Assembly: GCF_002849615.1 (NCBI RefSeq)
Contig: NZ_PDNV01000011.1
Coordinates: 1-64,000 of the forward strand
Origin: Pollutimonas nitritireducens
GTDB taxonomy: Bacteria; Pseudomonadota; Gammaproteobacteria; Burkholderiales; Burkholderiaceae_B
Direction of reading: 5' to 3'
Length of the DNA stretch: 64,000 bases
Position numbers and translations under genes: made by a program. The first letter of the stretch is position 1; every line of letters starts with the position of its first letter. This document shows positions 19,302 through 61,220 of this stretch, piece after piece. Under the pieces are notes generated by a model. It was given only the letters and a program-made list of their open reading frames with translations. It ran no database searches and had not been told where the DNA came from.

Positions 19302-19895
19302 ATGTCCAGTGCCAACATAGCGCAAGCGGCAGCACGTGCGGGCCGGGTGGTAGCGACCACCGCCCATCCGGCACTGATCATTCGTGATGCGACGCCCGAC
19401 GACATGGCAGCCGTACAACGCATCTATGCCGAGCATGTACTACATGGTACGGCAACATTCGAGGAAGTTCCTCCCTCTGTGGACGAAATGCGCGAGCGCC
19501 GCGCGCGGACTCTAGAAGCCGGCATGCCCTATCTGGTTGCAGTGCTTAATGATGAAGTGGTCGGATACTGCTACGCCACGCAATATCGCCCCCGGGTCGC
19601 ATACCGGTACACGATTGAAGATTCCATCTACCTCGCGGAGAACCAGGCCGGAAAAGGCCTGGGCAAGCCCCTGCTCGCCGCCCTCATAGAACGGTGCGAG
19701 CAAGGCCCATGGCGACAAATGATCGCTGTAATCGCCGGCAATAACAATTTCAGCTCCATTGGATTGCATCGAAGCATGGGCTTCACGCATGCGGGCACGC
19801 AAGTCGCCACCGGATTCAAGTTCAATGAATGGATCGACGTCGTATTCATGCAGCGTGCGCTGGGGGCGGGAAAAAACAGTCTCCCGGATCGGTGA
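19302..19895 (+). CDS. GNAT N-acetyltransferase (phosphinothricin acetyltransferase-like)
   Basis: Acetyl-CoA-dependent N-acetyltransferase of the PAT/Bar subfamily, 197 residues. The acetyl-CoA-binding motif is QAGKGLGKPLLAALIERCE; upstream TATFEEVPPSVDEM and VAYRYTIEDSIYL, and downstream NFSSIGLHRSMGF, match methionine-sulfoximine / phosphinothricin acetyltransferases. Substrate unproved. About 25 N-terminal residues precede the domain; a shorter start is possible. It diverges from the DUF442 gene and is followed by the NO-responsive promoter. Confidence 0.82.
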   Translation: MSSANIAQAAARAGRVVATTAHPALIIRDATPDDMAAVQRIYAEHVLHGTATFEEVPPSVDEMRERRARTLEAGMPYLVAVLNDEVVGYCYATQYRPRVAYRYTIEDSIYLAENQAGKGLGKPLLAALIERCEQGPWRQMIAVIAGNNNFSSIGLHRSMGFTHAGTQVATGFKFNEWIDVVFMQRALGAGKNSLPDR

Positions 19896-19989
19896 TACGT
19901 CGATCAAGGTGCCGCACACCATTTCTTTCGCCCTTGCCAGTCTCCCGAGTTCATCCCATTCTCGCTGCGGATTGCGTTGCCTCGATTTT

Positions 19990-20022
19990 TTTATAAGATT
20001 ACTCTACAATATATCTTATAAA
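19990..20022. promoter_or_regulatory. NsrR-type operator before the haemoglobin-nnrS-nsrR genes
   Basis: Two perfect 10-bp arms, TTTATAAGAT and ATCTTATAAA, are separated by 13 bases. The core AAGAT-N13-ATCTT has the exact 23-bp geometry of the NsrR consensus. A -10-like TACAAT (20005-20010) lies between the arms, so binding would block RNA polymerase. Confidence 0.75.
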
Positions 20023-20030
20023 CCCTAATT

Positions 20031-20051
20031 CATGTCCACACGCCGGACATG
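20031..20051. repeat. Inverted repeat over the haemoglobin start codon
   Basis: CATGTCC (20031-20037) and GGACATG (20045-20051) are perfect complements with a 7-base loop; the right arm includes the ATG at 20049. In RNA it could hide the start codon, which would favour a GTG start at 20076. Confidence 0.35.
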
Positions 20052-20480
20052 CTCACCCCTACGCAGGACGACTCCGTGGAAAGATCCGAACTCTGTACCG
20101 AAGAAGAAATCAGCACTCTCGTCTATGGTTTTTACGATCGCGTCCGGGCCGATGCCCTGTTAGGGTCCATATTCAACCAGCATATTTCCGATTGGGATAC
20201 ACACCTGAAAATCATGGTCCGGTTCTGGTCTTCCTTATTGATAGGCGCTGGCACCTATAGCGGCACCCCGATGCCCAAACATGTCGCCCTACCCGAGCTA
20301 AACGCAGACATGTTCAAGCATTGGCTGGCGCTGTTCCACGAAACCACCATGCAGTTGCCAAACCGGGCGCTGGCCGACCGCGCCGAAGAATACGCGCAAC
20401 GCATCGCTCGCAGCCTCTGGTACGGCTACCAAATGAATAACCAACCTAATCGTATCCCCTCGGAGCTAGGAAATGTCTGA
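20049..20480 (+). CDS. Group III truncated haemoglobin
   Basis: Haem protein of the truncated globin family, group III, up to 143 residues; likely binds O2 or NO and helps in NO detoxification. Family features are FYDRVRADALLGSIF, the FWSSLLIGAGTYSGTPMPKH stretch with the proximal-side His, and FKHWLALFHET. ATG 20049 lacks a clear ribosome-binding site and is in a hairpin; GTG 20076 after CAGGACG is an alternative giving 134 residues. It is the first gene of a three-gene unit and overlaps nnrS by 8 bases. Confidence 0.85.
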   Translation: MLTPTQDDSVERSELCTEEEISTLVYGFYDRVRADALLGSIFNQHISDWDTHLKIMVRFWSSLLIGAGTYSGTPMPKHVALPELNADMFKHWLALFHETTMQLPNRALADRAEEYAQRIARSLWYGYQMNNQPNRIPSELGNV

Positions 20481-21720
20481 CCTGCAGCAAATTAAAAAAG
20501 GTATCGCCGCGCCCGGCAGCCGCCCCGACATGGCAGCCTTCCTCGCTCTCGGGTTTCGTCCCCTTTACATTGCCGGCGCGGCCTGGGCACTGATCTCCAT
20601 CGCAATATGGATCTTTGCTCCGCAATTCATTGGCCACCCCTTATCAGCCGTGGCGTGGCACGCCCACGAAATGCTGTGGGGATTCATTGCCACCATAGCC
20701 GTCGCATTTCTCCTTACCGCCAGCGCCACATGGACCGGTTTCAATCCGTTGAAGGGAACGCCGCTGGCACTGGTCACCGTGCTTTGGGTCGTCGCACGGC
20801 TTGGCTATCTATTCGGTGGCACAACGGGATTCTGGATCGCTGCCCTGAGCGAATCCGCATTCTTTGCCATCAGCGCTGTTTGCCTTATGCGCGTCATGCT
20901 GAAAGGAAAAAGCCGACGCAATTATGGGGTGCCGTGGCTGATTCTGGGTCTGGGTGTCGCCAACGCGCTGTATCTGAAGGCAGCGCTGGAAGGCGACTAT
21001 CTATTGCTCATGCAGCGTTTTGATCTTGGCCTGATCTTCATGGCGATCATCGCCTTGCTGATCGGGCGGCGCGTTATTCCCTTTTTCGCCATGCGCATGG
21101 TTCCGGGCCTTGAACTTCCGATGCAAGTGCGCAGTGGCCAGGCGCAATTGGTGCTGAGTGCAATCGCCGTGGCATTGGGCGTTGCGGGCCTGCCCGTGTA
21201 CATGGCAATGGCGCTTGGCGTTGTCGGCGTCATCAGCCTTTGGCAGGTAACGAGCTGGAAGCCAGTGGCCGTACTGCATAAGCCCATGTTATGGATACTG
21301 TATCTGGGCTACGTGGGAATGGGCATAGGCTTGCTGTTTGCGGCATTGCACAGTAGCGGCCTGGGCGTCGGCGTACTGGCACGATCGGCCGTGCACGTTC
21401 ATATCATCGGAATGGGTGGATTTGCACTGCTGATCATAGGCATGCTTACGCGCACAGCTCTGGGCCATCTCGGCCGGCCTCTCGCGTTGGATGGCAGCAT
21501 GCTCGCCAGCTATTACCTGATGATCGCCTCGGTGGTGTTTCGTCTGGCGGCACTGTGGCCATCCGTCGCAAGCGGCGGCATGCTGCATGCTGCCGCGGCG
21601 TGCTGGATTCTGGCCATGGCACTTTATCTTTGGCGCTTTGTGCCCATGCTTATCCGCCCGCGCTATATCGCGCCCGTGGCCAAAGACCCGGTGGCAACCA
21701 CCGTACTGAAGAAACAATAG
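20473..21720 (+). CDS. nnrS: NnrS family haem-copper membrane protein
   Basis: Integral membrane protein of the NnrS family, 415 residues with about twelve helices, associated with resistance to nitric oxide and nitrosative stress. Conserved features are ALGFRPLYIAGAAWAL, WHAHEMLWGF with possible metal ligands, a later RVIPFFAMRMVPG, and HVHIIGMGGFALLIIGMLTR. It overlaps the truncated-haemoglobin gene by 8 bases and is followed by nsrR 20 bases later, so the three form one NO-responsive unit. Confidence 0.93.
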   Translation: MSDLQQIKKGIAAPGSRPDMAAFLALGFRPLYIAGAAWALISIAIWIFAPQFIGHPLSAVAWHAHEMLWGFIATIAVAFLLTASATWTGFNPLKGTPLALVTVLWVVARLGYLFGGTTGFWIAALSESAFFAISAVCLMRVMLKGKSRRNYGVPWLILGLGVANALYLKAALEGDYLLLMQRFDLGLIFMAIIALLIGRRVIPFFAMRMVPGLELPMQVRSGQAQLVLSAIAVALGVAGLPVYMAMALGVVGVISLWQVTSWKPVAVLHKPMLWILYLGYVGMGIGLLFAALHSSGLGVGVLARSAVHVHIIGMGGFALLIIGMLTRTALGHLGRPLALDGSMLASYYLMIASVVFRLAALWPSVASGGMLHAAAACWILAMALYLWRFVPMLIRPRYIAPVAKDPVATTVLKKQ

Positions 21721-21740
21721 TCCCTGGAATTCGAGACAAT

Positions 21741-22196
21741 ATGCGCCTGACCACCATGACGGACTATGCCATGCGCCTGCTCATGTACGTCGGCAGGCAC
21801 CCTGACCGCCTGTGCACAATCTCCGAGATTGCGCACGCATACGATATCTCCGAACCGCATCTCATGAAGATCACGCACCGGCTTGCGCAGCGTGGCTGGA
21901 TCGAAACCGTGAGGGGGAAAAATGGCGGCATGCGGCTGGGACGCCCCCCCGAAGACATCATTCTGGGCGCAGTACTGCGCGACACCGAAAACGACCTTGA
22001 TCTTGTCGAATGTTTTGCAACGGGAAGCCGCTGCACATTGAGCGGCTATTGTGGGCTGACGGGCATTATCGAGGGTGCGCTGCAGAAGTTCATGGACCAT
22101 CTCGATGGCTATACGCTTGCCGACATCCTGCCCGAACACGCCGGTTGTGGACCCGCACGGTCCGAGCACATGATCAAGCTCGTGAATATCAAATGA
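21741..22196 (+). CDS. nsrR: Rrf2-family NO-sensing repressor NsrR
   Basis: Repressor with an Fe-S cluster that is destroyed by nitric oxide. The 151-residue protein begins MRLTTMTDYAMRLLMYVG, with a winged helix containing ISEIAHAYDISEPHLMKI. The cluster cysteines are at 91, 98 and 104, at the positions expected for NsrR (E. coli 91, 96, 102). The open frame starts far upstream inside nnrS, but ATG 21741 is the typical start. The operon's own NsrR-type operator at 19990-20022 implies autoregulation. It converges on the MarR gene. Confidence 0.9.
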   Translation: MRLTTMTDYAMRLLMYVGRHPDRLCTISEIAHAYDISEPHLMKITHRLAQRGWIETVRGKNGGMRLGRPPEDIILGAVLRDTENDLDLVECFATGSRCTLSGYCGLTGIIEGALQKFMDHLDGYTLADILPEHAGCGPARSEHMIKLVNIK

Positions 22197-22217
22197 CCGG
22201 AAGACTGAACACAGGCG

Positions 22218-22655
22218 TCATTCGTGGAAGTGATTCAGAAGGTCGACCAGCAGCGGCCGCACCGCACGCAGTTCATTAAGGTGAGCGCTGGCCAGGACGG
22301 CCAGCTTCTGTTCCGCCAGCGGCGTCAGGGCGACGCGCACTCGGCGGCGATCCTGCTGGTCGCGACAACGCAGCAACAAGCCCATTCGGACCAGACGGTC
22401 GATCAGCTCGACAGCACTATGGTGACGTATAAGCAATTGCTCAGCCACGTTCCCAACGCTGGGCGAGGATTCCAGGCTTAGCGCCTTGATGGCAAGCAAG
22501 GTCTGATGCTGCTGCGGCATAAGTCCGACCTGGGCCGCAGCCGATTCGCTGAATGCAATGAACCGGCGCAACGTAAAACGGAACGTGGCCAGCGCCCGGT
22601 AATCGGCGGCGGTGGGCGTTCCGTCGGTACGCCCCGGATCGTTGTATGACGTCAT
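22218..22655 (-). CDS. MarR-family transcriptional regulator
   Basis: Winged-helix regulator of 145 residues. The recognition region LSLESSPSVGNVAEQLLIRHHSAVELIDRL and the wing motif DQQDRRRVRVALTPLAEQ (the DxR wing) are typical of MarR. Ligand and targets are unknown. It lies 15 bases downstream of serA on the same strand and may be cotranscribed with it. Confidence 0.88.
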   Translation of the reverse strand: MTSYNDPGRTDGTPTAADYRALATFRFTLRRFIAFSESAAAQVGLMPQQHQTLLAIKALSLESSPSVGNVAEQLLIRHHSAVELIDRLVRMGLLLRCRDQQDRRRVRVALTPLAEQKLAVLASAHLNELRAVRPLLVDLLNHFHE

Positions 22656-59552: not shown

Positions 59553-61220
59553 TCAGGCCTCCGCCAATGCGGCGCCAGCCGTTACGGGCTTGTGAAATAG
59601 CGCAGGCCCCACCCGCTTTGGTCCGTAGCGCAAGGCCATGGCGCCGAAATGTACGGCAAACACCAAATGGCCGAGGGTCATCAGCGCACCGCCCACCGAC
59701 CTGGATTGCAGATAAGGCATCGTCAGCTGCACGGATTCCATAAAGCTGCGTGAGGCATCCAGCATGGCCACGCCCTGCAACCATCCGCCTATGGTCAGGC
59801 CCACGAAATAGATGCCGAAGCCCAGGACGACAAGCCAGAAGTGCAGCGCTATCAGCCGAGGGTAAGGCCACTCCCACGACATGACGCGCGGCATGACGAA
59901 ATAGATCGCGCCGAACATCACCAGGGAAAAGAAGGCATACAGGCCCAGGTGTGCGTGCGCCACCGTGAAGTGCGTAAAGTGCGTAACGGTATTCACACTG
60001 CGCAAGGCTTCCATCGAACCCTGCACCGAACTAAGCGTGTACATCATTCCACCCAGCACGATGAAGCGCAGCGTCGGTGAATAAATCAGCGTCTTGAAAT
60101 GGTGCCGCATGGTCATATGCTGGTTCACCGAAAAAGCAAGTACAGGCACCACCATCATCACGCTCTGCACGATGGACAGCGTGACCAGCCAAGCGGGTAC
60201 CGGCCCCCCTATCAAGTGGTGCCCGCCGACCTGCCCGTAAAAAAATGCCAGTGCCCAGAAGCCCAGCAGCGACAGGTTATATGACTGGATGGGTCGCCCG
60301 ATAATCTTGGGCAGGAAGTAATAAACGGTAGCGAGGGCCACCGGCGTATAGAAAAGACCCAGCACGTTATGCCCGAACCACCAGTTCATCGTAGCCTGCT
60401 CCACGCCGAAATGCAGGCCGGGAATATTGCCGATCAAAAACAAAATGGGAAACCAGAACAGCGCCGCACCCATATACCAGATGGATACATATAAATGCTG
60501 GACCTTGCGGTTTTGCAAGGTGAACACCATGGGCAAGCCGATGAGTGCGCCCCCAATGACGAACAGAACATCGATCTGCCACGGAATCTCCAGCCATTCA
60601 AGCCCATCGCTGATACCCACCGCAATACTTCCCAGCCCCGCGATAAGCGCTGCATTCCACAACATGGCGCCCAGGAGCGCGAAGCGCGCGCCCATGAGTG
60701 GTGTTTTCAATAGCCGCGGCAAGGTCCAGATGGCAATGCCGAAGGCTGCCATCGGCGCCCACCCATAGGCCACGGAATTCAAATGCAAAGTGCGGATACG
60801 CCCGAAGGTCAGCCAGGCATACTGCGCCAGGAAATCCGGTTCATGCAATTTTATGGAGCTGATCAGGCCGGCCACCGACGCAAGGATCAGCCATGCCACG
60901 GCACAGGCAAGAAAGACGAAGGTGACATAAGCCGTGGACCGATCCGCTTCGATGCGATCCGCAAGCTCGAGCCTCATCCGCGCATCGCGGGACACATCTG
61001 CAATCGGAGCGTGGGTAGCGTCTACCGCGTGTTGCAAGGCCTTATGCTGCTGCGCGGTCGCGGCCGGCTCTTCAATGGTGCCGATTTCGCCTTCGGAGAA
61101 AATGACATTGGCGGCTGAAGGATTGTCATCGAACAGATTCTTGCGCAATGACCAGACAAAGACGAACAAACCTGTGACGGACAGGATAAAGGTCAGGAGA
61201 AGAATGGTGAGCGTATTCAT
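59553..61220 (-). CDS. ccoN: cbb3-type oxidase catalytic subunit with CcoS-like N-terminus
   Basis: Haem-copper oxidase subunit I, 555 residues. Residues 1-50 are an extra helix plus SLRKNLFDDNP, like the maturation protein CcoS. The CcoN part (about 95-545) has about twelve helices: a haem-b His in RTLHLNSVAYGW (His146), the CuB region FGHNVLGLFYTP (His284), the helix FFYGQVGGHHL with the expected Tyr and His pair, and HFTHFTVAHAHLG with haem ligands. No ccoQ is present. An FNR-type box is 36-49 bases upstream. First gene of the oxidase operon. Confidence 0.9.
   Translation of the reverse strand: MNTLTILLLTFILSVTGLFVFVWSLRKNLFDDNPSAANVIFSEGEIGTIEEPAATAQQHKALQHAVDATHAPIADVSRDARMRLELADRIEADRSTAYVTFVFLACAVAWLILASVAGLISSIKLHEPDFLAQYAWLTFGRIRTLHLNSVAYGWAPMAAFGIAIWTLPRLLKTPLMGARFALLGAMLWNAALIAGLGSIAVGISDGLEWLEIPWQIDVLFVIGGALIGLPMVFTLQNRKVQHLYVSIWYMGAALFWFPILFLIGNIPGLHFGVEQATMNWWFGHNVLGLFYTPVALATVYYFLPKIIGRPIQSYNLSLLGFWALAFFYGQVGGHHLIGGPVPAWLVTLSIVQSVMMVVPVLAFSVNQHMTMRHHFKTLIYSPTLRFIVLGGMMYTLSSVQGSMEALRSVNTVTHFTHFTVAHAHLGLYAFFSLVMFGAIYFVMPRVMSWEWPYPRLIALHFWLVVLGFGIYFVGLTIGGWLQGVAMLDASRSFMESVQLTMPYLQSRSVGGALMTLGHLVFAVHFGAMALRYGPKRVGPALFHKPVTAGAALAEA

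Follow-up and report, generated by a model that had tools for sequence, protein, structure and literature searches.

A group III truncated haemoglobin at the head of a putative NsrR-type nitric oxide defence operon in Pollutimonas nitritireducens

What controls the truncated haemoglobin gene that stands in front of nnrS and a repressor gene in Pollutimonas nitritireducens, and does the group serve in defence against nitric oxide (NO)? The three genes lie in a 64,000-nt stretch of DNA (contig NZ_PDNV01000011.1, positions 1 to 64,000; hereafter the window), and a preliminary description, made from the letters of the window, read them as a self-regulated NO module behind an NsrR-type box. Comparison with relatives supports the view that such a box governs the globin, nnrS and the repressor, and self-regulation is the likely reading because the repressor lies in its own boxed operon. 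The genes, their order, the box, its conservation and a compact regulon of similar boxes all come directly from the computations below. We put the probability that the locus is an autoregulated NO defence operon with an NsrR-type repressor at about 0.8, judging from sequence comparison.

Layout of the operon and its products

The features of the locus are as follows.

19972-19977, + strand: putative degraded -35 element, TTGCGT (TTGACG or TTGACC in relatives), from comparison with relatives
19990-20022, no strand: inverted arms of 10 bp each, perfect, with 13 bases between them, by direct reading
19994-19999, + strand: likely -10 element, TAAGAT, overlapping the left arm; the register is supported in relatives and weak in the window
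19995-20017, no strand: predicted NsrR-type operator, AAGAT-N13-ATCTT, from pattern counts and conservation in relatives
20065-20068, + strand: Shine-Dalgarno-like AGGA, 7 nt before GTG 20076, by direct reading
20076-20480, + strand: group III truncated haemoglobin, 134 residues from GTG (PDB match, start alignment, residues, model and Foldseek)
20473-21720, + strand: nnrS, a membrane protein of 415 residues (PF05940, 281 bits, cut-off 28)
21741-22196, + strand: NsrR-type Rrf2 repressor of 151 residues with C91, C98, C104 and D8 (Pfam, NCBIfam, PDB match and residues)

As first described, the three genes overlap or are closely spaced and the repressor comes last: the globin gene, which ends at 20480, overlaps nnrS by 8 nt, and a gap of 20 nt separates nnrS from the repressor gene. 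The operon probably ends there, because the next gene, of MarR type (22218-22655), sits on the other strand. Just upstream of the operon lies a gene for a GNAT acetyltransferase (19302-19895), ArsN1-like but below the family cut-off; in several relatives, short stretches like the 3′ end of this gene likewise lie upstream of the box.

The assignment of the first gene to the group III truncated haemoglobins is borne out. Its product has a single PDB match at E ≤ 0.001, the Campylobacter jejuni group III truncated haemoglobin (2ig3, E 5.6e-17), and no match in Pfam or NCBIfam at that threshold. A predicted structure built from 12 sequences (pLDDT 77.5) points to the same protein, with two 2ig3 chains at ranks 1 and 2 of 264 in Foldseek (E about 1e-4). 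Y29, H52, H78 and W92 (143-residue numbering) are invariant in all 12 sequences and align in 2ig3 with residues that we take to be Tyr B10, His E7, His F8 and Trp G8 of Ctb. The nearest named globin, from Pollutimonas subterranea, is 88% identical. A sample of 200 genomes of the family contains 104 with the globin at E ≤ 0.001, and a sample of 300 genomes of the order contains 56, many of them with weak matches. Gene contexts cluster on a tree of 110 globins in which many forks are unresolved (15 changes for five context labels, against a shuffled mean of 48.2). Seven family globins (L080-L083, L085, L087 and L091) form a separate, well-supported clade and have neither the box nor a linked nnrS or nsrR.

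The most likely start of the globin is GTG 20076, which gives the 134-residue protein, and not ATG 20049, the other start considered at the outset. An alignment of 41 rows, 10 of them flagged duplicates, sets 30 distinct relatives beside the window: in line with GTG 20076, to within one codon, 29 relatives have ATG and one, L019, has GTG. This reading of the alignment carries the argument, because an automatic count could parse no more than 44 of 75 loci (41 ATG, 3 GTG). The hairpin thought to enclose the start codon, CATGTCC-N7-GGACATG, is present at 20031-20051, but with a start at GTG 20076 it does not cover it. The fold of the leader is also ordinary (z -0.95, with 34 of 200 shuffles equally good), and no such hairpin was seen in relatives on reading the upstream alignment.

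The last gene encodes a member of the Rrf2 family (PF02082, 121 bits, cut-off 30) whose best solved match is the NsrR of Streptomyces coelicolor (E 7.4e-13). All 11 sequences compared share C91, C98, C104 and D8; in S. coelicolor NsrR, Asp8 serves as the fourth ligand. The protein scores 118.2 bits on the NCBIfam NsrR equivalog (cut-off 182) and 130.8 bits on the RirA equivalog (cut-off 193), and the RirA model gives the better E-value, also over 11 relatives. As it falls below the NsrR cut-off, we call the repressor NsrR-type and do not treat it as the NCBIfam equivalog; the box, the linkage and the ligand residues together suggest the name. Three Rrf2 proteins of the genome exceed the Pfam cut-off. 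The other two were taken, by reading without a family scan, as IscR-like (contig C36) and SUF-regulator-like (C3), and the repressor of the operon appears to be the only plausible NsrR among them.

Operator and promoter in relatives

The inverted arms, TTTATAAGAT at 19990-19999 and ATCTTATAAA at 20013-20022, are perfect over 10 bp with 13 bases between them, in keeping with the AAGAT-N13-ATCTT geometry that first drew attention to the site. Taken alone this pattern is weak evidence, because it occurs five times in the genome (4.31 Mb) against once for the reversed control. By our own count, the box of the window matches the published consensus gATGyAT-N5-ATrCATc (PMC1274295) at 10 of 14 letters, with a worse fit in the left half-site than in the right. 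The left half-site departs from GATGyAT at G4, which is T, a change reported for Neisseria in that paper. Among the 45 distinct boxes of three-gene loci, 23 have T as this fourth letter, 18 have A and 3 have G.

Conservation was followed at 115 globin loci with context: 90 come from the 104 family genomes, and 25 from the 51 genomes of the order-level set that lie outside the family. A box with at most one mismatch precedes every one of the 56 glb-nnrS-nsrR loci, 46 of them exactly, where resampled upstream DNA would give 0.01 exact boxes and 0.41 with one mismatch. The same is true of all 5 glb-nnrS loci (5 exact) and all 14 glb-nsrR loci (12 exact), compared with 6 of 40 loci (4 exact) at which neither nnrS nor nsrR was found downstream within the stretch examined. 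Overall, 76 of the 90 family loci are boxed at this level, 64 of them exactly, and 5 of the 25 outside the family; as the sequences are related, the loci cannot be counted as independent trials. The main weight lies on how linked loci differ from unlinked ones. The globin as such does not appear to be tied to NsrR, since no box is found at 34 of the 40 loci that lack linkage to either gene.

A stricter pattern, AAGATN3TN5AN3ATCTT, occurs 14 times in five genomes of the genus, with no occurrence of the reversed control. Twelve of these boxes precede the globin (5 of 5 genomes), a gene with an HMA domain (4 of 5; in G028 the match spans only 26 residues) or a gene with a hemerythrin domain (3 of 5), and the remaining two, both in G109, have no recognised NO gene downstream. 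On this pattern the boxes of the genus seem to form a compact regulon, in which a metallochaperone-like HMA protein would be an unusual member. In P. nitritireducens itself, exact boxes stand before the hemerythrin-domain gene (C6:89366; L002 1501-1970) and before the HMA-domain gene (C11:217968; L003 1501-1838), which is small and has a CCGGCGG tail. At C3:130028 (L049) a site with one mismatch stands before a gene that gave no Pfam match.

We then tried six promoter registers on 74 boxed loci, with shuffled upstream DNA as the control. Only a -10 element TAAGAT at the left arm outperforms the control, with 53 of 74 loci scoring at least 8 of 12 (control 9.9%). TTGAC lies 17 or 18 nt 5′ of this element in 51 of the 74 loci, where 0.14 are expected (41 of 55 three-gene, 9 of 14 glb-nsrR and 1 of 5 glb-nnrS loci). 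A -10 element within the left arm means that bound repressor would cover it. The TACAAT between the arms, initially singled out as -10-like, is indeed present (20005-20010), but its register does no better than the shuffled control (7 of 74 loci at 8 or more of 12, against 11%), and it is probably not the -10 element. Upstream of the globin, the best FNR/DNR-type site has 4 mismatches, and a search for a tandem NorR array found none, returning a single loose GT-N7-AC match at -167.

Nitric oxide defence and its rivals

P. nitritireducens probably makes and reduces NO: its genome encodes NirK (copper nitrite reductase), NorR and YtfE above NCBIfam cut-offs, together with norCB- and norQ-like genes recognised by reading and a COX1 match. 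For a cytochrome cd1 nitrite reductase, the matches were weak and short, and this candidate was set aside. On contig C6, norR is divergent from ytfE-qNOR (L150 1246-3735, L146 631-2940), an NO-responsive unit of its own that lacks an NsrR box. No NsrR box better than 3 mismatches was found within 300 bases upstream of qNOR or norC, or in the stretches carrying norR-ytfE-qNOR and nirK-norC. NorR and the NsrR-type repressor therefore seem to divide the NO response between them.

The preliminary description considered a truncated globin in this position unusual compared with flavohaemoglobin (Hmp), and the wider sample upholds this in part. No Hmp in the P. nitritireducens genome exceeds the family cut-off, and Hmp is rarer in family genomes in which glb is followed by nnrS (11 of 58, against 64 of 142 of the rest; relatedness uncorrected). 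On the other side, Hmp is commoner in genomes with glb alone (15 of 18, relatedness again uncorrected), and the globin is itself common in the family. A simple mutual exclusion of globin and Hmp was rejected, as there is no overall association (p 0.56) and the context groups differ in opposite directions.

We propose that the Fe-S cluster repressor encoded by the last gene would bind the 23-bp box and so cover the -10 element of a single promoter. Attack of NO on the cluster would release the repressor, and the globin, NnrS and more repressor would be produced. The group III globin could then remove NO, as a dioxygenase with O2 or via binding or reduction, and NnrS could protect at the membrane, by a chemistry that we leave unspecified. 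Once NO drops, rebuilt repressor would close the operon again. The cluster, NO sensing, repression, autoregulation and NO removal are attributed here by analogy with the named families (for NsrR, PMC4432287 and PMC1274295). Several findings weigh against this proposal: the missed NsrR cut-off, the 10 of 14 letters in the box, the weak promoter, the 34 boxless loci of 40 without linkage, and the ties of Ctb to O2.

Some of these findings could be explained in other ways. If the regulator sensed iron or Fe-S status, as a RirA-like protein would, the operon would be a haem- or iron-related unit, and the higher score of the RirA model (131 against 118 bits, both below cut-off) speaks for this. We regard this as improbable, given that the best solved match of the repressor is an NsrR and that the box tracks linkage to nnrS or nsrR and has the published NsrR geometry (PMC1274295), nnrS being also recurrent in NO regulons according to that paper. 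A different doubt concerns the globin, which could be under NsrR control and yet serve O2 handling or other chemistry instead of NO removal. Ctb is 'implicated in oxygen metabolism' by titles cited in PMC9686644, and the genome provides nirK, norCB-like genes and ytfE-qNOR for NO as well. Set against this are the predicted co-transcription with nnrS and nsrR, the retention of the box in relatives, the lack of an Hmp over the cut-off in this genome and a precedent for truncated globins under NO regulators (PMC3820574); we consider a globin devoted to such other roles rather unlikely.

The promoter raises a further question specific to this strain. TTGAC is absent from the window and from the nearest relative, G087, both of which retain TACAAT between the arms, and scanning 19850-22400 for sigma-70 promoters gave no match. 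With TTGCGT at the -35 position, these observations suggest that the promoter of the P. nitritireducens operon may be weaker or shifted. That the -35 element is damaged to the point that the operon is weakly transcribed, poorly induced or using the spacer TACAAT seems to us unlikely, as the reading frames and operator arms are intact and 23 of the 74 boxed loci do without TTGAC, which is therefore not indispensable.

For NnrS, the only PF05940 match in the genome, the predicted structure (pLDDT 69.6, pTM 0.69) offers a lead and not a result. Foldseek ranks 1 to 12 for this model all belong to the haem-copper oxidase superfamily, cbb3, ba3 and qNOR among them, and the best match to cbb3 has E 4.4e-4 and TM 0.69. 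Profile comparisons with CcoN, qNOR and NorB gave probabilities below 1% in 5 of 5 cases (four proteins of this genome), one of these non-significant comparisons aligning NnrS 304-375 with the CcoN stretch that holds the paired histidines. Four histidines only, H63, H65, H310 and H332, are conserved at 90% or more in 61 NnrS sequences, fewer than the six invariant in the oxidases (H65, H212, H262, H263, H350 and H352 of a CcoN-like protein). The window itself encodes a CcoN-like oxidase subunit (59685-60923, - strand, COX1 268 bits), and a second CcoN-like protein sits on contig C29. The fold match and the lower count of Hmp in glb-nnrS genomes could be read together: the globin and NnrS might act as a coupled NO-handling pair that replaces flavohaemoglobin in many family genomes, with NnrS a diverged catalytic subunit of the haem-copper oxidase/NO reductase type that keeps haem-type histidines (H63/H65, H310) and has lost the copper-site set. 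This joint reading is speculative and rather doubtful, in view of the insignificant profile similarity, the moderate confidence of the model and an Hmp count uncorrected for relatedness. If NnrS did have an oxidase or NO reductase fold, its long-open function would become directly testable.

Comparison with known NO regulons

Among the open-access papers searched, PMC8139620, PMC9686644, PMC6710368 and PMC9973335 included, we found no group III globin under NsrR. What is new is that a group III globin leads the operon, an arrangement conserved in the family, and overall the operon is only moderately new. One conserved switch would link two little-understood kinds of protein, the group III globins and NnrS, across the family, in which flavohaemoglobin need not be the centrepiece of NsrR-type regulons. 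With its three genes, the operon is a compact system for probing the roles of both proteins.

The globin GlbN of Legionella pneumophila belongs to group I. Its operon with a ferredoxin reductase gene (Gardner 2012, PMC3820574) likewise places a truncated globin under NsrR, but it combines a GlbN-type globin with a reductase and, as described in that paper, has no nnrS or nsrR. According to the same source, C. jejuni Ctb belongs to a regulon for nitrosative stress; it is the closest solved relative of our globin (PDB 2ig3) and is under NO-responsive control of the sort predicted here, but its regulator NssR is a Crp-Fnr family activator and no Rrf2 repressor, and its partner is the single-domain globin Cgb.

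The regulon of S. coelicolor NsrR, as described in PMC4432287, is compact and autoregulated, as we propose for the present one, with NO abolishing binding to a site in which an 11-bp inverted repeat lies within 23 bp and terminal AA/TT is needed. Unlike the operon described here, its targets are two flavohaemoglobin genes and nsrR, under separate promoters. The nearest parallels are the nnrS-nsrR and hmp-nsrR operons known in NsrR regulons of beta- and gamma-proteobacteria (Rodionov et al. 2005, PMC1274295), which have in common with the P. nitritireducens locus an NsrR-type palindrome, a repressor clustered with its targets and nnrS in the operon; the globin of those regulons is the flavohaemoglobin Hmp, whereas here a group III truncated globin takes the lead.
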